DNA of 64,000 bases from positions 1-64,000 of the forward strand of contig JAKQHY010000173.1 of the NCBI GenBank assembly GCA_029555965.1, written 5' to 3'. The notes under the pieces were generated by a model. That model saw only the letters and a program-made list of their open reading frames with translations. It was not told the origin of the DNA and did not search any database. A program made the translations under genes and the position numbers. Numbering within the stretch: the first letter of the stretch is position 1; each line of letters begins with the position of its first letter. The DNA is from Chloroflexota bacterium (GTDB lineage: Bacteria > Chloroflexota > Anaerolineae > B4-G1 > SLSP01). Below are positions 53,315 to 64,000 of the stretch, piece after piece.

Positions 53315-53485
53315 ATGAAAAGCTATCGGCAAGAACTATGGTTAGAGACACCGACGCGACGCGCATTCATCAACATCACACCCCAGGTAGAGCAGTGCCT
53401 GCGCGCCAGTGGGATTCAAGAAGGATTGATGTTAGTCAATTCAATGCACATAACGATAAGTGTAACTCAATTGAGACAGGGGTAG
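53315..53485 (+). pseudogene. yjbQ: 5' fragment of a YjbQ/UPF0047 family gene, truncated
   Basis: [50 protein letters not shown] then abrupt divergence (TQLRQG*). Confidence 0.8.
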
Positions 53486-54266
53486 GCAAAGAATAGGAAA
53501 GGGTTGCAATCCCGTCTTTTACCGTGACCTTTGCGTCAAACACGTCCAGAATTTCACGCTTAGTTTTACTGTTGGCGTTGTCTATCCCCTTTGCTATATC
53601 CTCAGCATACCGCACCGCCGCCAGGATCACCTCATCGGTCAGCCGTCGCCGAGCTAGTATATCCTCAAGGACTAGCCGTCGGGCGTCCAATGCCTCGTAA
53701 CGGGCGTTCAATTCGTCTATCTTCTCTTGCAGTGTTTTTTCGACTATCCCGCGCGCCTTTTCAAGTGCCGCCACGATAGACACCGCTTTGGCCTCGGCGT
53801 CGGTCAACATTTCCTTGACGGTTGCCAGCTCTTCACGTTGCGGGTCAAAGGCGTCCAGTTCTGTCTTTTGCGCTTCCCTCAGTTTGCGCTCAAATTCTTC
53901 AGGGTACTTGATCACCATGAGAATATGATCCCAGACCGCTGCTTCCAGGACCTCGGCGGGCATATACCGTTCAAAACAGCTACATTCCACCACACCGGCC
54001 AGCCCAACCATCGAATTACAATGATAATACCGATATAATTTTATCTTATTTGGTGTTATCCCCACCATCGCACGCCCGCACCCACACCGGATCAAGCCGC
54101 TCAACAGGTAGTTATGCTTGGCGTTACGTTTTGCCTTGCGGATATTGCGCTCCCGCTGTACCTGTGCTAACTCCCAAGTTGTGGCATCCACAATGGCGGG
54201 AACCTGGATAGTGTGATCGTCCCCTTGCCTTTTACGGTCGGCGTTATAGTGCCATTCCCCTTTGTG
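53436..54266 (-). pseudogene. C-terminal part of a large serine recombinase (zinc-ribbon and coiled-coil)
   Basis: KGEWHYNADRKRQGDDHTIQVPAIVDATTWELAQVQRERN...LLSGLIRCGCGRAMVG...; N-terminal catalytic domain absent. Confidence 0.85.
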
Positions 54267-54269
54267 TTA

Positions 54270-54594
54270 GTATGTAAGCAGCAAGGGCCGCGGGACGCTG
54301 CGGCACTTGCGCCGGGCACGTTCTGGCGCACACTAACCGTGTTGAGTAGCGGGAACGTAGGCGCCGGGGACGCTACGTGAGGGCCGGTCGTTATACCTAT
54401 GGAACGCCGCGCGCGGGGACGCGCCTCCGGCCAGTCCGCCGTTGTGTTTGACCGCCCGCTCGCTTCCACTCAACTGGGAGTATCCGTTAAGATAGGGTAC
54501 CGCCCGTATCTGTGTGTGAAGTTGCGCCCTACTAACTGAACGTGCCCGGCCTACGCAAGGCAGGTGGCCTTGCGCCATTGAGTAAAGGAGCGCG
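54270..54594 (+). ncRNA. Candidate IS110 bridge RNA/structured leader region
   Basis: About 325-nt noncoding GC-rich segment directly upstream of the IS110 transposase with several hairpins, e.g. CGCAAGGC-aggtg-GCCTTGCG. Confidence 0.5.
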
Positions 54595-55815
54595 ATGAAC
54601 GAGAATCTGAGTATACCGCAACGTTATATCGGTCTGGATGTGCATAAGCACTACCTGGTGGCGGTCGGGGTGACGCCCGACCGCCAGCGGGTGTATGGCC
54701 CGCAGCGCGTGGAGCTGAGCCGGCTGGATGCCTGGATCGCCAAGACGCTGACCCCGCAGGACGCGGTGGTATTGGAGATGACCGGCAACAGCTATCAACT
54801 CTACGACGAACTCTTGCCCCACGTCCAGTCGGTGACCGTGGTGCATCCCCCGCACGTCAAATTGATCACGGCGATGCCGGTGATGAATGACAAGCTTGCC
54901 GCAGCGCGCTTGGCCGAGTTGCACGCCGCCGGGCTGTTGGAGGGCATCTGGGTGCCGCCGCAGCCGGTGCGTGAACTGCGCGCCCTGATCGCCCAGCGCG
55001 GCAAGATGGTGAAGTTGGCGACGCAGGCCAAGAACCGGCTGCACGCGGTGCTGCACCGCTACCACCTGGCCCCGCCCGAGGGCGACCTGTTCAGCGCCGC
55101 GCAGCGGGAGTGGTGGGAGCACCTGGCCCTGACGCCGGTGGAACGGGTGCGCATTGCGTGTGATCTGAGCACGCTCGAATGTGCCCGCACCCAGAGTGCC
55201 CAGATCGAAACCGTGCTCCACGAATTGGCCGCCCAGGAGGAGCGGGTGGTCTATCTGGTGCAACTCCCCGGCGTGGGCGTGCTCACCGCCTTGACGCTGC
55301 TGGCGGCCATCGGCGACATCACCCGCTTCCCGACGGCCAAGCACCTGGTGGGCTATGCCGGGCTGGGCAGTCGCCTCCACGACAGCGGCCAGACCACGCG
55401 CCGGGGGCGACTCACCAAAGACGGGCGGCGCGACCTGCGTTGCGCAGTGGTGGAGTCCGCCCACAGTGCCGCCCGCACCCATCCGCACTGGCAGGCCGAG
55501 TTGGCGCGGCTCGAACCCCGCCTGGGCTACAACAAAGCCATCGTCGCTATTGCCCGCAAACTGCTGGTCAGCGTGTGGCACGTCCTGACCCACCAATGCG
55601 TCGACCGTTTTGCCGAACCCGAATTGCTGGCGCGCAAACTGTTCGCGTTTGCCGAAACCCTTACCGTCGCCCGCCGTCCCGAGCAGCAAACCGCCGCCGC
55701 CTATACCCATCACCTCCTGGTCCGCCTGGGCTGCGGCGCCGATCTGGCCACCTTCCCCCGCGGCGCCAAGACGATTCACTTGCTGCCGCCCGACCCGGAC
55801 GCGCCCACGGCCTGA
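54595..55815 (+). mobile_element. IS110 family transposase (DEDD type)
   Basis: YIGLDVHKHYLVAVGV; VVLEMTGN; DKLAAARLAEL; LPGVGVLTALTLLAAIGDITRFPTAKHLVGYAGL. Confidence 0.93.
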
Positions 55816-55993
55816 GCGCGCGTCACGCTGATTTCAGCGCCCGGGCTATTCCGGTCTTTTTTCTTAGAAGATAGCTTGACCTCGGTGGCCCGTAGCGCCC
55901 CTCCCCGTGCAAAGTCCCCCTTTGCCTGCGGGTGGTTTCACGCGCCTCGCCTCCGATCTTCACTGACACTGATCTTAGCGTAATTTTGGGGGC

Positions 55994-56205
55994 TTGACAA
56001 TCCCTTACATCTGTGTAGGCATAGTGCGTGACCTGGCCCAACGGGTCAATGAGCGCGACCCGGCGGCCCAGGAGGTCATACGCGCTGGTGGTCGCCGCAT
56101 CCAGGCCATCGGTGGTGGAGATGACGCGCCCGGCGGTATCGTAATCCTGCCACGACACCACACCCTCCGGCGTGACGGTCTCCACCTGACGGTCGAGGAT
56201 GTTTT
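55994..56205 (-). pseudogene. Rhs/YD-repeat core fragment, truncated at both ends
   Basis: LDRQVETVTPEGVVSWQDYDTAGRVISTTDGLDAATTSAYDLLGRRVALIDPLGQVTHYAYTDV; homologous to part of 61254-64000. Confidence 0.8.
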
Positions 56206-56238: not shown

Positions 56239-57816
56239 CTACTGGTGATTTAATTTCATAATATATACATAGTAAACGCCAGTATCTGGCAATGGTGCTT
56301 TGTATGCTTCTTCGGGTGCGAAATCCCCTGCGCGCGTCACTATCCGTACCCAGGCATCTTGGGGAATGTCTTGATGCCCAACATTGGCTAACATAACGAT
56401 TTCGTTCCTCCCATCATTGTCGGTATCTGCTACCAGAAATCTGGGAAAAACTCTGTCTGTATAAATATCCAATGCGTCAATGGCATCAACGAGAGTATTA
56501 TCCACAATGTATTGCCCTTCCCGCAGATCCAAAACAAGACCTGATCCAAAGATGATCTCGTCTTTGGTGTCATCATCCAGATCCCCTGTGGCTAGGGACC
56601 AGGCTGGAACAGAAAGTTCATGACGCCATACAAGATGGTAGCGATTGCCCTGCCACTGATAAATATCCAGATACATATCGCGGAGTGAGCGAAACCTGCT
56701 TCTAGACTTTAGCCGATAGGTTTTGGGTCCCCAGAGCACAAGCACTTCATCCAGTTCATCACCACTGACATCAGCGGTTTTCATCTGTACCACATACTTG
56801 TCATTATAGTCGGGGAGTATGTCCGTTGGACTGAAGTTATGGTCTTGCCACACCTGCAAGTGCAAAACCGGCGTTTCCCCCGACCAGTCGCTTACAATGT
56901 AATACAGCTCCCCCAGTACGCTAGGCAAACGTTCCAGGAGCAAGGTGTAGCCTTCTTGTTCGAAAAGCGTGGGAATAAATCCCGATGATTTTCGGTTGAC
57001 CATCACCATAGCGGTTTTCGCTTCGACAAATATTTCCTCGCGCTCTTGGCATGACGAGATCTCCGAATTGGGAACCAAAGCATCATAATTCGTGGCAGAA
57101 GACACAAACAAAGTCGAAACCCCATCCAGCTCCACCGGGCTCAGATGATAGACAGATCCCAAACAAAGCGTCTCCAAGAGGGACTGGGTGACATTGTCAC
57201 GCAGGGTCACAATGCTCAGATAGCCGTTTTGATTGGTGCGCCAGGGGCTGCTGCCCACAATCAACACGCGCTCACCATCCCAATCCATCAGTGCCATACT
57301 ACTGGTTTGAGCGATGTCCAAAAAGTGTGGGTTTTGTTCAACTGGTAACAAGTGTTCCAGAACATAATCTGTACCATCCCATACGAAGGCTTTGACGCTT
57401 GCTTGCTCAGTGTTGAGTATGTCTGGGTCATAAGACTTATTCGTAGGATCATAATCCAGCGCCGGTAGACTAATCAACAGCTCATTACGAGTATCCCTAT
57501 CAATATCTCCTACCAGCATAGGCAATGTGCTCCCCCATACATCAACTATAGGTCCAAGCCAGGGCACCTCAAGTTTGGTGACCTTAGAGATGACGAAGGA
57601 ACGCTCAACAACTGGCATAATCAACTCTACCGGTTGTTGAACGACAGTAACCGTAGCGGTCAATGTTGCTGCTGGTGTCTCAGACACACCTGGCTTCGCA
57701 GTCACCATTTCGCTTGTAGGTGTAGTTGAAGGCGTCAAAGTCACAGAATGAGATGCTAGGCTGTGGCAACCCACCAATAGTAGCGCGATAGTGAGTATGG
57801 CGATTTGTTTGCACAT
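56239..57816 (-). CDS. FG-GAP/VCBS-repeat lipoprotein
   Basis: MCKQIAILTIALLLVGCHS lipobox; LVGDIDRDTRNELLIS, TADVSGDELDEVLVL, ATGDLDDDTKDEIIF, VADTDNDGRNEIVML. Confidence 0.75.
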   Translation of the reverse strand: MCKQIAILTIALLLVGCHSLASHSVTLTPSTTPTSEMVTAKPGVSETPAATLTATVTVVQQPVELIMPVVERSFVISKVTKLEVPWLGPIVDVWGSTLPMLVGDIDRDTRNELLISLPALDYDPTNKSYDPDILNTEQASVKAFVWDGTDYVLEHLLPVEQNPHFLDIAQTSSMALMDWDGERVLIVGSSPWRTNQNGYLSIVTLRDNVTQSLLETLCLGSVYHLSPVELDGVSTLFVSSATNYDALVPNSEISSCQEREEIFVEAKTAMVMVNRKSSGFIPTLFEQEGYTLLLERLPSVLGELYYIVSDWSGETPVLHLQVWQDHNFSPTDILPDYNDKYVVQMKTADVSGDELDEVLVLWGPKTYRLKSRSRFRSLRDMYLDIYQWQGNRYHLVWRHELSVPAWSLATGDLDDDTKDEIIFGSGLVLDLREGQYIVDNTLVDAIDALDIYTDRVFPRFLVADTDNDGRNEIVMLANVGHQDIPQDAWVRIVTRAGDFAPEEAYKAPLPDTGVYYVYIMKLNHQ

Positions 57817-57823
57817 ATCTATA

Positions 57824-58747
57824 ACTCAAGTTGCCACCTTTAGGCAGTCAATACTAAAAGCTAAGACAAAGAGTACAATTTTGAGTTCGAAACCCACCGG
57901 CGTCACCGCGTGAATGGTCTTAGGGAAACGTTGCGTGATCACACTGCCGGCGGTCTCCACCATTTTGCGATAGTGATGCTGTAGGTAGCGGGCCCAGGGC
58001 GGGTCGGGGCGTTTAGAGTTCTTCTTCCGCATGGGCTGTAAGTCAATCCCATCGGTGTCGCGTAAGTCATCTTCGAAACCATAATCGTTGTAACCCCGGT
58101 CGGCATATATGGTAGCTCCTGCTGGCAGATCAAAGGCATAATGCGGTAGTGTACTGACATCGCTCGTTGAGCCAGGAGTCAAGAACACCTCGACGGGTTG
58201 TCCGTCTTTGGTGATTAACAAGTGCAATTTCAGTCCATAGAAGTAGCGTTTCTTACTGGCGATATAGCCCCGATCACGTTCCGTGGTGTACAGCCGCCCG
58301 CGCGGGATCCGAATGTTATCACATACCGGGATGGGAAACGAATCAATACTGTAAATGGACTCCGTATTGAGCTCTTTCCAATATTCACCAAGTGATGAAA
58401 ACAACGTCAGGAACAAGTCTCTGATGCGATGCAGCCGCCGATTGAAGCGACTGGCACTCAGCATGTGGGGAATGTAGTTGTGTTCCTGCAAAAAAGTACA
58501 AGCCTGCGCGTAATTGCCCCCGTAATACAAGACCGCCGTGATGGCCGTGGTCATCACTTCGGCATCACTCATCTGGCATTGCGGGTCTTCGTAATGATGC
58601 AGCGCTTTCAACAGGTCGTCACACAGGCAATACACGGCTATAATGTGGGTGTCCATAGATTCCTCCGTAGCGTTAGGGTTTAGTCACCACTAACTATACG
58701 AGGAATCTATGGATTTCCTACTTCTCTTTCAAGGTAGCAACTTGGGT
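57824..58747 (-). mobile_element. Complete IS982 family insertion sequence
   Basis: TIRs ACTCAAGTTGCCACCTT / ACCCAAGTTGCTACCTT; 8-bp TSD TATCTATA at 57816-57823 and 58748-58755. Confidence 0.9.
57826..58656 (-). CDS. IS982 family transposase
   Basis: 276 aa; CQMSDAEVMTTAITAVLYYGGNYAQA, MLSASRFNRRLHRI, YADRGYNDY. Confidence 0.9.
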   Translation of the reverse strand: MDTHIIAVYCLCDDLLKALHHYEDPQCQMSDAEVMTTAITAVLYYGGNYAQACTFLQEHNYIPHMLSASRFNRRLHRIRDLFLTLFSSLGEYWKELNTESIYSIDSFPIPVCDNIRIPRGRLYTTERDRGYIASKKRYFYGLKLHLLITKDGQPVEVFLTPGSTSDVSTLPHYAFDLPAGATIYADRGYNDYGFEDDLRDTDGIDLQPMRKKNSKRPDPPWARYLQHHYRKMVETAGSVITQRFPKTIHAVTPVGFELKIVLFVLAFSIDCLKVAT

Positions 58748-58761
58748 TATCTATATGACTC

Positions 58762-60519
58762 CTATTTACCTGGGGTGAACAACCGACCAACATCTGAATA
58801 GTCTTCGCATTTGTGATTTCTCCAGTCGCAATTCTTTAGATCGCGAGAATTCCAACCGTTGGAATAGAGTTCCCAGACCCGCCACCCGTAGGCTTGAGCA
58901 GTATCGTTTCCAGGGCCATATCGATCTAGGGCCGCTTGCCAGTCACTCTCACTATCAGTAAACCCTCCGTTGAGAATGGATTGCATCTGCATTTTGTAGA
59001 AAAAGAACCGAATGCCGTATGCGATAGTATCAAAAGGTTCCCCCTGAAATTCTGAACCAACATTGATAAAACCCCAAGCATAGGGGTCAACATATGTACC
59101 CTGCATCGCTTTGAGACCTTCCAAGTCCCTGAAAGTGACAAATCCATCTCTCACCTGCATTACATTGCCAATGTCCCCAGGTGCTTCACTCTGACCGACG
59201 CCGGTCTCTTCAAAAGCAATAGCCTTTATTAGATTGGGGGAAACATTTGGTAGGTTCGCCGCACTCCCTGATCTTTGTTTACGCCAATTCCAATAGCTTG
59301 TCCAACCGGAAATTATCCAATCATATTTATTGTAATCAATACCCTTAATTTGTTCGTATGAAGGATTTTCGTAACATTGCATATCATTTAGGATATTGTT
59401 AGGATGAGATGGGCTAATCGGGCTCTCTTGGAAGTTAAGAGCCACAATCAATCGAGCCATATATGCTACTTTAGGATCAGGGTCTGCAATTCCGGTCAGT
59501 TCATTTGTCCCAATATCTAAAGGTTTACTAGTAGCTGTCCAAGCTATTAGAAGAAGTTGGCGATATGTATCCCAAGGTATTATCTCCGCCAGACCGCTTG
59601 GATCATTCTTATTTATGGGATTGCCACCAACATAATTGAACTTGTGTAAAGTATGGGGCTGCCTTACGTCTCCGCTCCACGGATCGACCTGCGTAAACCG
59701 TCCTGTCGCTCCATCGTACCACCGCGCCCGCAGATACGTCAACCCCACACCCGCATCGAACCACTCCCCGGTGAACCCCAACCCCGTCTGCGCCTCGCCG
59801 ATTTCTTCACCATACGGCGACCACTCGCGGGCGGCCGTCACCGCGCCAGCGGCGTCAGTCTCCTGGCGCACACTTCCCAATGCGTCGGGCAACACAAACG
59901 TCCAGGCCGTCCCGCTCTGCCAGCCCAGGGTATCGTAGCCGATGAGGTACAGGGAGTCGCCATCGCTCAACAACTCCGGCACGCCCGTGGCCCAGTCCCA
60001 GGTGAAGGTGTCAACGGATTGCACGGAGGTAACGGATTGGGAACGCGCCAGCCGCAGGCCATCGGCATTGTACGTATACACCAGCGTCGCCGTGAGACTT
60101 TGCGCCCGCACCATCCGCCCGGCGGAATTATACGTGTAGGTAAACGTGCCATCGGAGAGCAGGTTGCCCCGTCCATCCCAAGTGTACAGCACGCCATCCG
60201 CACTTGTCAAGCGATTGGCCGCGTCATAGACGTAGGTGTGAACTGCGGTATCCGTCATTGCCGTGCGGTTGCCGACGGGATCATACTGGTAGGCGTACTG
60301 CTCACCGGTAGAGTAATCGGCGGCAGTCAGGCGATAGAGGGCATCATAGGTGTAGCTGATCCCGCGCGGGACGCCGCTGCCGGTCTCCGTGACGTGCATG
60401 CGATTGCCGGCGGCGTCCAGCGTGTAGGCGTAGTGCGCCAGCACGGTTGTTCCACGCGCGTGCAGCAGGGCGGTCAGGCGGCCGGCGGGGTCATAGGTGG
60501 GCGTGGTCTGGACGCCAGA
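58762..60519 (-). CDS. Orphan Rhs core plus C-terminal domain with lytic-transglycosylase-like features
   Basis: YD repeats, YLRARWYDGATGRFTQVDP core end; C-terminal region SPNLIKAIAFEETGVG...GDIGNVMQV...AYGIRFF...ALDRYGPGN; in-frame stop at 60520-60522, no full N-terminus. Confidence 0.75.
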   Translation of the reverse strand, partial: SGVQTTPTYDPAGRLTALLHARGTTVLAHYAYTLDAAGNRMHVTETGSGVPRGISYTYDALYRLTAADYSTGEQYAYQYDPVGNRTAMTDTAVHTYVYDAANRLTSADGVLYTWDGRGNLLSDGTFTYTYNSAGRMVRAQSLTATLVYTYNADGLRLARSQSVTSVQSVDTFTWDWATGVPELLSDGDSLYLIGYDTLGWQSGTAWTFVLPDALGSVRQETDAAGAVTAAREWSPYGEEIGEAQTGLGFTGEWFDAGVGLTYLRARWYDGATGRFTQVDPWSGDVRQPHTLHKFNYVGGNPINKNDPSGLAEIIPWDTYRQLLLIAWTATSKPLDIGTNELTGIADPDPKVAYMARLIVALNFQESPISPSHPNNILNDMQCYENPSYEQIKGIDYNKYDWIISGWTSYWNWRKQRSGSAANLPNVSPNLIKAIAFEETGVGQSEAPGDIGNVMQVRDGFVTFRDLEGLKAMQGTYVDPYAWGFINVGSEFQGEPFDTIAYGIRFFFYKMQMQSILNGGFTDSESDWQAALDRYGPGNDTAQAYGWRVWELYSNGWNSRDLKNCDWRNHKCEDYSDVGRLFTPGK

Positions 60520-60565
60520 TTACATAGCCCCATTGTCATAGACCAGATGCCATACTGGCAATAGG

Positions 60566-61123
60566 TTAAGGTAAGCGGGTGAATACGACAGGTTCTCCTA
60601 CAATTTCTACATATCCAAACTCATTTGTTTCTTTATCATGTATTTCCAGACGCTTCTGTACGGTCAGGGTGTAGGTACCCGGTTCAGATAATTCAAACCA
60701 AGTATCTATACGGAAAACTTCTTGAAAAGGTTGGTCTGGATAAATGCCCTGTTCCAGAAAGGAAGTTCTCGCACCCATTGTGGTGATTCCATCTTCCGTC
60801 ATCTGTACAATTTCTCCCTGTGCATCTGTAATGTACAACTCGAAATTAAGATGAGGATTATAGCGAGAAAATCCCACATCCGTATCATCCAAAACTGATA
60901 TAGTTGCAGTAATTATGATAGGCTCTCCCTGGGTATAGTTATCATTGTTGGTTGTAGCTCGTATTACACAAGTTTCACAAGTTACGACTACCGGCTCTCG
61001 CGACGATGTCTGCTCACGGCAATTGGTAGTGGCTATCATCAACAGAATGAATAGGAGGAATGTGCTGCCTCTCCATATCGAAGCTATATACTGCCTATAC
61101 TTTCGCATATTTACATTCACCAT
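60566..61123 (-). CDS. Small lipoprotein, predicted Ig-like fold
   Basis: FLLFILLMIATTNCREQ lipobox; beta-rich EPIIITATISVLDDTDVG...FELYITDAQGEIV. Confidence 0.6.
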   Translation of the reverse strand: MVNVNMRKYRQYIASIWRGSTFLLFILLMIATTNCREQTSSREPVVVTCETCVIRATTNNDNYTQGEPIIITATISVLDDTDVGFSRYNPHLNFELYITDAQGEIVQMTEDGITTMGARTSFLEQGIYPDQPFQEVFRIDTWFELSEPGTYTLTVQKRLEIHDKETNEFGYVEIVGEPVVFTRLP

Positions 61124-61253: not shown

Positions 61254-64000
61254 TCATTTAAGACACGATATTGGTATGTCTGCAAGCAGCTTAGAAGATG
61301 TTGAGCGCATATCGGTTACACAACGCCACTGCTCATCAACCCATGCCTTGGCATCCGTCGGACGCCCCCAAGTGCCATTACCTCCTAGTCGGGTTTTTCC
61401 AGCCCACCTCCAACCAATCACTCCCAACGGTATGCGTTCGTTCCCTGTATCTGATTGCCACATAAGATATGTTTCAAATTGTTCGGTAACACTGACCTGT
61501 TCAATGTCTAAGGGGTTAGAATGTCCAAATGGATGCACGGGGGCCATGGGCGCATCGGCCATTTCGAGCGTCACTATACCCGGTGAACTTACATAGCGGA
61601 AGTCTTCGTAAGTATATTTGGGACGCTCAGGATCATTGTAGTTGTCATATGAAAGTCCTGTGGGTAGTAAGGGATATGGATCACCGTCCGTAAACCATTG
61701 GTCCAACGTGGTTTTGTAACAGCACCTTCCATTGCTTTCGCGCCATTCCGTTTCAGAGTTTCCTATCTGGACAAACTCGAGGTTCCCTGCTGCATTCTCA
61801 GGTACTAACACAGTAGCCTTGAGGATTATACCTGGAAGTTTTCCATCTTTTCTAGGATGACCAAAATGAAGACTCTGCTGCTCCCAACTGTCCGAGACAT
61901 CAACTTCGCCCAGAGTCGCAGTGAAAGATTGAATCTGCGGCGTGCCTTCTGGCAAATCAGTACATGTTGGAGGTGTAGGCGGTGGCGAGAAATCACAACA
62001 CCCTGCGAGCGATCCCAACGCCAACACTCCCATGCATACCAACATCACCCACGGATGTTCACCTTTGCGCCGTTTTCGTCCCGGCCACACCTGGACTACC
62101 GCCAGCGGCAGCAGCGCCAGCCAGATGCCCAGACTCGGGTCAAAGTAACGCCCACCCTGGTAAAGTAATCCAATGCTCCAATCATACACCCCGCCGCAGA
62201 CCAAGTGACTTACCGGGCCCTCCGGCCCTTCCAACAGCGTCCCATCCGGATCGAACAGCCACGCGCTGACCACCGCCCCGTCTGCATCCACACCCTGACG
62301 CACGTAGCCTTCCGCGTCGGGGAGGTAGTACAGCGGCACATCGTCGCGGAACTCGCCCAGGCAGTCGTGGCCGTAGAGGTAGGCCACGGTTTCCGTCGGG
62401 GTGGTTTCGGCGAGGATGCGGCTTCCGGCGGCGTAGTCGAGGGTGTAGCGGGTGGTTTGGCCGGTCACGGAGACGGCGACGCGCGCGCCAAGTCCATTAT
62501 ACGCAAATTCGGTGGTCAGGGTAAAGACGGTGACGTTGACCAGTTGCCCGGCGCCGTCATATTCAAACGTGCGCACGGGGACGCCTTGCGTGTATTCGGC
62601 CAGCATTTGCCCGCGCGCCGACCAGGTGTAGGTATAGGCGCGCCCGTCGCTCACGGCGCGGTCGGTGAGGCGGTTGGCGGCATCGAAGGTGTAATCGGTG
62701 ACGACTGTGCCGCTCAAGGGGGTGGTGCTGGCCATTGCGCTGCGGTTGCCGGCTGCGTCGTAGTGATAGACAAAGGCTGCGCCGGTGGAGTAATCGGCGG
62801 CGGTCAGGCGATAGAGGGCGTCGTAAGTATAGCTGATCCCGCGTGTGACGCCGCCGCCGGTCTCCGTGATGTGCGTGCGATTGCCGGCGGCGTCCAGCGT
62901 GTAGACATAGTGCGCCAGCACGGTGGTGCCGCGTGCGTGGAGCAGGGCCGTTAGTCTTCCGGCACCATCATAACCGTGTGTGGTGACCACACCGTTGGGC
63001 AGCGTGGTGGTGATCAGACGGCCGGCGGGATCGTAGCCGTAGGTGGTCGTGCCGGTGGCCCAGTCGGTGACGCGGATGAGGCGGTTGTCGGCATCGTAGG
63101 CGTAATATGTAGCTGTGGGTTGTGCGTTGTGGGTTACGGTGAGGGTAGTACGGTTGCCGACCAGATCGTAGGCATATTCGACTGTGCCGGTGAACGGATC
63201 GGTGACGCGGACGAGGCGGCCCAGGTCGTCGTACTCGTAGCTGGTCACGCCGGAGGTGTCCGTCATTGCCGTACGGCGGCCTAACGCATCATAGGCATAT
63301 TCCACGGTGGCGTCGGGATACTGGATTTCAACCAGGCGATTGAGGCCATCGTAGACGTAGTGTGTCACCAGACCATCGGCATCGGTGACGACGGTGCGGC
63401 GACTCAGGGCGTCGTAGGCGGTGAAGGTGCGGTGGCCCAGGGCGTCTTCGACGACGACCGGGCGACCCAGCACGTCGTAGGTGGTGAAGGATTGGGTGTA
63501 GGCGCGCGCGTTGGTGATGACAGTGCGGTTGCCCAATACGTCGTAGGCATAGCGTGTCACAACGTTGGTCGCTTGATCCGCTGATCCGCCGCTCCGCTGA
63601 TTCTCCGTCACCGCGACCAGACGATTGAGCGCGTCATAGCCGTAGGCGGTCACAATGCCGTTGGCGTCAGTGATGGCGGTCTGGTTGCCCAGGGCGTTGT
63701 AAGCATAGTGCGTGGTCTGGCTCAACGGATCAATCACCGCGATCCGCCGCCCCAACGCATCATACCCGTACTCCGTAATCCTGCCGCCTGCGTCCTGCAT
63801 CCTTGCCACGCGCCCGGCGGTATCGTAATACTGCCGCGCTACCACGCCTTCCGGCGTGACGGTTTCCACCTGGCGGTCAAGGGCGTCGTAGACGAAGGTG
63901 GCAGTGTGCCCGCGGGCATCGGTCTGGCCGGTGCGGCGGCCCAGCAAGTCGTAGTGGGTGAGCGTGGTGACGGCGACGCCATCCAGGTAGCGGGTCGTAG
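61254..64000 (-). CDS. Rhs/YD-repeat protein with TM segment and novel C-terminal domain; N-terminus outside window
   Basis: Many YDALGRR..., core end GLLYQGGRYFDPSLGIWL, then WVMLVCMGVLALGSLAGC and an unrecognised C-terminal domain. Confidence 0.85.
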   Translation of the reverse strand, partial: TTRYLDGVAVTTLTHYDLLGRRTGQTDARGHTATFVYDALDRQVETVTPEGVVARQYYDTAGRVARMQDAGGRITEYGYDALGRRIAVIDPLSQTTHYAYNALGNQTAITDANGIVTAYGYDALNRLVAVTENQRSGGSADQATNVVTRYAYDVLGNRTVITNARAYTQSFTTYDVLGRPVVVEDALGHRTFTAYDALSRRTVVTDADGLVTHYVYDGLNRLVEIQYPDATVEYAYDALGRRTAMTDTSGVTSYEYDDLGRLVRVTDPFTGTVEYAYDLVGNRTTLTVTHNAQPTATYYAYDADNRLIRVTDWATGTTTYGYDPAGRLITTTLPNGVVTTHGYDGAGRLTALLHARGTTVLAHYVYTLDAAGNRTHITETGGGVTRGISYTYDALYRLTAADYSTGAAFVYHYDAAGNRSAMASTTPLSGTVVTDYTFDAANRLTDRAVSDGRAYTYTWSARGQMLAEYTQGVPVRTFEYDGAGQLVNVTVFTLTTEFAYNGLGARVAVSVTGQTTRYTLDYAAGSRILAETTPTETVAYLYGHDCLGEFRDDVPLYYLPDAEGYVRQGVDADGAVVSAWLFDPDGTLLEGPEGPVSHLVCGGVYDWSIGLLYQGGRYFDPSLGIWLALLPLAVVQVWPGRKRRKGEHPWVMLVCMGVLALGSLAGCCDFSPPPTPPTCTDLPEGTPQIQSFTATLGEVDVSDSWEQQSLHFGHPRKDGKLPGIILKATVLVPENAAGNLEFVQIGNSETEWRESNGRCCYKTTLDQWFTDGDPYPLLPTGLSYDNYNDPERPKYTYEDFRYVSSPGIVTLEMADAPMAPVHPFGHSNPLDIEQVSVTEQFETYLMWQSDTGNERIPLGVIGWRWAGKTRLGGNGTWGRPTDAKAWVDEQWRCVTDMRSTSSKLLADIPISCLK

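Follow-up and report, generated by a model that had tools for sequence, protein, structure and literature searches.

A displaced Rhs module with a putative lysozyme-like tip and a candidate lipoprotein immunity gene, parted by an IS982-family insertion, in a Chloroflexota bacterium

Where one Rhs core is found with more than one tip, the arrangement has been called C-terminal displacement (PMC2935791). In Salmonella, an orphan module that lacks start and export signals becomes active once it recombines onto the main gene, whose core it matches at 95% over 522 bp (PMC3967940), and some Salmonella orphans are expressed from internal promoters (PMC7043789). The peptidoglycan-cleaving tips of polymorphic toxins include FlgJ-type glycohydrolases (PMC3482391). 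The locus described here resembles the enterobacterial orphan rhs-CT/rhsI modules (PMC2935791, PMC3967940, PMC7043789) in its headless core, its DPxGL border, its non-homologous tip and the absence of a start signal, and in lying downstream of an rhs gene with a small gene putatively paired to it. It differs from them in the lower similarity of its core to that of the upstream gene (83% over 232 bp), in its uncultured lineage, in its immunity candidate, which is a 525-aa FG-GAP lipoprotein, and in the IS982 element inside the module.

The window, the 64,000-nucleotide stretch that was analysed, is part of contig C137 (70,379 bp) of a draft genome of 237 contigs that is 84.7% complete. Its minus strand carries, in order, the upstream Rhs gene, the protein at 61123-60566, the core and tip at 60519-58762, the IS982 element, the lipoprotein gene at 57816-56239 and a third core fragment. 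The features of the locus, and the related cassette found elsewhere in the genome, are as follows.

61254 to 64000 in the window, minus strand: upstream Rhs gene; beyond the window its frame reaches an ATG at contig position 64289; the first part of its core is common with the cassette
60566 to 61123, minus strand: exported-looking protein of 185 aa, candidate immunity protein of the upstream Rhs gene
60519 to 58762, minus strand: headless open reading frame of 585 codons
59605 to 60519, minus strand: headless Rhs core fragment, with YD repeats and the Rhs-associated core (TIGR03696)
58765 to 59604, minus strand: tip (CT) of 280 aa, running from DPSGL up to the codon that precedes the TAG (58762-58764), G+C 44%
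58831 to 59340, minus strand: predicted lysozyme-like (GH23/SLT-type) domain in the tip
58748 to 58755: target-site duplication TATCTATA, 8 bp, tip side
57824 to 58747, minus strand: IS982-family element of 924 bp with terminal repeats
57826 to 58656: IS982 transposase ORF (NF033520, 1.4e-55)
57816 to 57823: target-site duplication TATCTATA, 8 bp, lipoprotein side, overlapping the lipoprotein ATG
56239 to 57816, minus strand: lipoprotein-like FG-GAP protein of 525 aa (FG-GAP_3, 2.3e-07), candidate immunity protein of the tip
about 55823 to 56198, minus strand: third Rhs core fragment, headless, ending beside an IS110-family element
54595 to 55815: IS110-family element, adjoining the broken third core fragment
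contig C210 (L039:3990-4769), minus strand: second headless Rhs cassette, a 260-codon frame with a different, very short tip

The 585-codon frame is directly preceded by an in-frame TAA (60520-60522), and no head, N-terminus, start or export signal was found for it at the locus, which confirms the abrupt start within the Rhs core reported by the first-pass annotation. Six RHS_repeat stretches were recognised in the frame (Pfam, E 3.8e-12), and the TIGR03696 match (NCBIfam, 3e-17, residues 234-310) ends with DPSGL. The 280 residues beyond this border are unlike the core and are encoded without a stop or frameshift, and the G+C content steps from 62.5% in the core to 44% in the tip; the distinct C-terminal domain that had been proposed behind the core is present.

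The core repeats had also been called nearly identical to those of the 61254 gene. This is so for their first part, where 58 of the first 64 core residues are identical (counted from the sequences) and the DNA agrees at 83% over 232 bp, but not for the whole core, which shares only about 46-51% protein identity with that gene. Within the genome, the core of the orphan cassette on contig C210 comes closest, with 88% DNA identity over 537 bp. Since C210 and the cassette join one core to different tips, they follow the pattern of C-terminal displacement (PMC2935791). The headless frame, the DPSGL border, the G+C step, the C210 core with its other tip and the pattern of the array all support the displaced Rhs-CT cassette that was originally suggested, and from its sequence we consider it very probable that the cassette is a displaced Rhs-CT module.

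A core fragment begins within about 50 bp after each of the two genes for exported-looking proteins (185 aa and 525 aa), as would be expected if each module consisted of a core, a tip and an immunity gene. The locus can be read as an array of displaced Rhs-CT/immunity modules, in which the minus-strand unit 60519-56239 would be one module with three parts, the core fragment without a head, the toxin tip of 280 aa and the immunity gene. The 185-aa protein had three matches, all in genome G067 (L032, L033 and L034), two of them neighbours, and no rhs gene was present among the genes listed for one such context, on contig C350; this protein may belong to a wider lipoprotein family rather than be a dedicated immunity protein. 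At the far end of the array, positions 53436-55815 contain an IS110-family (RNA-guided) transposase gene and, next to it, a large serine recombinase represented by its C-terminal part (weak CcrB/XisF matches).

It is not clear that the 61254 gene is intact, as its ATG at 64289 sits just behind a 2007-aa ORF that ends in a stop and a perfect hairpin. The 2007-aa ORF contains PKD-like and repeat regions and ends at 64355, and the hairpin, with 12-bp arms (CACGGGCAGGGAGTATTCCCTGCCCGTG, C137:64298-64325, L026:298-325), lies between it and the ATG. The end of the 61254 gene encodes, after a truncated core, a hydrophobic segment and, internally, a site resembling a lipobox (HPWVMLVCMGVLALGSLAGCC); it may be displaced too, or be an unusual Rhs end. 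Elsewhere in the same genome, contig C38 (L038:1503-7211, minus strand) carries a long Rhs frame that stays open for 1903 codons and begins much like a signal peptide (MLIAKSSFWRAGWHIILTLAVLLPG), which suggests that Rhs proteins are exported by the general pathway. Several Rhs loci of the genome are on short contigs.

The first description of the cassette overlooked both the inserted IS982 element and the lipoprotein gene linked to the tip. The element has the ends ACTCAAGTTGCCACCTTT and ACCCAAGTTGCTACCTTG and is flanked by a perfect 8-bp duplication. Once the element is discounted, the lipoprotein ATG lies 13 nt past the tip TAG, as read from the sequence, and a GGAG overlaps the tip stop codon; the insertion separated the lipoprotein gene both from the tip and from this ribosome-binding site. 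Coupled pairs typically show a spacing like these 13 nt, which makes the lipoprotein gene the best candidate for immunity. The 525-codon lipoprotein frame is intact, and the protein start, MCKQIAILTIALLLVGC, reads by eye as a lipoprotein-type signal. Matches of the 525-aa protein in other genomes were weak and covered only the FG-GAP part, and no toxin-linked neighbours were found for relatives of the 525-aa and 185-aa lipoproteins. An exported, membrane-held candidate antidote is consistent with a wall-acting toxin, and the 525-aa lipoprotein is reasonably likely to be the immunity protein of the tip.

No relatives of the tip were found in 99 related genomes, in 396 genomes of the class, 400 of the phylum and 48 of the order, in viral contigs, plasmids and phages, or in genome contigs searched by an exact-peptide-pattern method, which reaches close relatives only. 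Weak matches in the 396 class genomes looked like noise upon re-alignment. The tip had no match to Pfam, PHROG or PDB sequences, and with no match to PF01464 (GH23/SLT) at E up to 10 it stays below the cut-off of that family. As the tip had no relatives in the collections searched, the lysozyme hypothesis of the first-pass annotation was tested directly.

We scored the tip with a chain of four block profiles made from 40 SLT domains (39 from related genomes and one from a phage). The chain picked, in order, NLIKAIAFEETGV, NVMQV, TIAYGIRFF and LDRYGPGN, with a score that was the highest among 266 stretches of the window and was equalled by 18 of 3000 shuffles. With 31 phage SLT domains, hhalign aligned the tip over 94 columns at E 0.005, a value that none of 200 shuffles reached; against a mixed profile, 2 of 200 shuffles did as well as the tip. 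The profile tests stand at P about 0.005-0.01 against shuffles. Plain HMMER SLT profiles were weaker, ranking the tip 4th to 20th of 1001, and the signal was not clear when only cellular SLTs went into the profiles. An unsupervised alignment brought all SLT blocks of the tip together at 20-31% identity. In these alignments FEETG is placed with the SLT QES, the E-[ST] motif is present and falls on a helix in the fold model, and the second Glu of FEET (codon 59206-59208) would be the catalytic residue. At the G-[LIV]-M-Q motif the tip has NVMQV, with MQ kept and Gly replaced by Asn, and at the A-Y-N motif it has LDRYGPGN, with Tyr kept and Asn replaced by Gly. A hand-written SLT-subfamily consensus also gave the tip a high score, which we discounted as evidence because the consensus was written with the tip in view; through it a single genuine relative of the subfamily was found in a phage, and scans with it of genome contigs, plasmids and phages confirmed nothing.

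Folded alone by single-sequence AlphaFold2, the tip gave an uninformative model (pLDDT 33). With an SLT alignment, whose rows were phage SLTs from the viral-contig scan and from which genome-locus rows were left out, the segment 58831-59340 was modelled at a mean pLDDT of 65, its main helices at 70-88; the first helix is among the well-scored ones although the SLT rows barely cover it. Foldseek alone found nothing significant with this model. Among the 303 chains that Foldseek ranked highest, VIA-align placed 14 at Z 6.5-7.3 (113-126 residues, 2.8-4.2 Å), the next row being at 3.4, and 13 of the 14 were goose-type lysozymes, a GH23-type chitinase, MltF and MltE (Z 6.6-7.3), the other being a phage neck protein. 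A Z below 8 is weak by itself, and the weight lies on the clean gap and the uniform family. The comparison with SLT/goose-lysozyme folds that had been proposed as a check thus puts GH23-type structures on top, but from a model of pLDDT 65, and since its alignment was picked for the lysozyme hypothesis, the model supports that hypothesis without proving it.

The tip is like the GH23/SLT family (PF01464; Slt70, MltE, MltF, goose lysozyme) in having the E-[ST] helix Glu, MQV, a later helix and the [AL]xxY block in order, and its predicted fold resembles GH23/SLT and goose-type lysozymes. It is unlike them in having no Pfam match, N-V-M-Q for G-L-M-Q, R-Y-G for A-Y-N and about 25 extra residues between blocks. 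With the score below the PF01464 cut-off and the A-Y-N motif altered, we do not file the tip as a PF01464 member; SLT-like working is still the best explanation. It is also like the FlgJ-type tips of polymorphic toxins (PMC3482391), which we liken to it by description, in being a predicted wall-cutting domain used as an exchangeable C-terminal tip, and unlike them in lacking a sequence match to a library family. The lysozyme/transglycosylase reading has moderate support: the peptides first quoted for it are the blocks that one would expect, in their proper order, but none of the family models matches and the alignment behind the fold was built on the hypothesis. We think the tip is probably lysozyme-like on the modelled fold, and as to its being a working peptidoglycan hydrolase the modelling leaves us evenly divided. 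The system is of a known kind, with a tip sequence that the collections searched do not otherwise contain. That the tip founds a new, highly divergent lysozyme-fold Rhs toxin family, with a membrane-anchored FG-GAP (beta-propeller-type) lipoprotein as a new kind of immunity, is a tentative idea that we would not favour.

The cassette could also be a displaced Rhs-CT module in which the SLT-like motifs arose by chance, in a helical toxin of some other activity. No SLT model matches the tip, its A-Y-N motif is altered, and the motif tests, prompted by the earlier reading, reach only P about 0.005-0.01; but all SLT blocks come in order and are put together by an unsupervised aligner, GH23-type structures make up nearly all of the top fold matches and are set off by a clear gap, and the lipoprotein gene linked to the tip has a predicted exported product, as expected for a wall-acting toxin. 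We hold chance resemblance to be unlikely. Slightly less credible still is a decayed remnant, once a lysozyme-like Rhs toxin, of which the module is now dead and the immunity gene cut off. The missing start and export signals, the IS982 within the module and the broken third core fragment would fit such decay, and against it stand the 280 tip codons free of stops and frameshifts and the intact lipoprotein frame.

It is very improbable that mis-assembly of Rhs repeats created the array, even in an incomplete draft genome with several Rhs loci on short contigs: unique sequence lies just upstream of the core fragment, behind the lipoprotein gene, with no join within the repeat, the common core DNA is only 83-88% identical, and the IS982 target duplication is perfect.

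We narrowly favour the whole explanation of a displaced module with a lysozyme-superfamily tip, lipoprotein immunity and uncoupling by IS982. Without a start or export signal, the tip would at present probably be silent or nearly so, a silence that is an assumption given the internal promoters of some Salmonella orphans (PMC7043789). It could serve as a spare, which recombination through homologous core DNA would place onto a complete rhs gene to yield an Rhs toxin; with core identity below the Salmonella value, this recombination would be less efficient. The tip would most likely act as a GH23/SLT-like peptidoglycan hydrolase, cutting the glycan chains of neighbours via the second Glu of FEETG, and the 525-aa lipoprotein would most likely shield the producer outside the membrane.

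If this explanation is true, the range of displaced Rhs toxin arrays, which are known best from enterobacteria, would take in an uncultured lineage, and the tips described would gain a wall-cutting one for which searches of the sensitivity used found no relative in sequence. The tip and the lipoprotein make a directly testable prediction of a toxin-immunity pair, and the IS982 between their genes would be a snapshot of such a pair becoming uncoupled.
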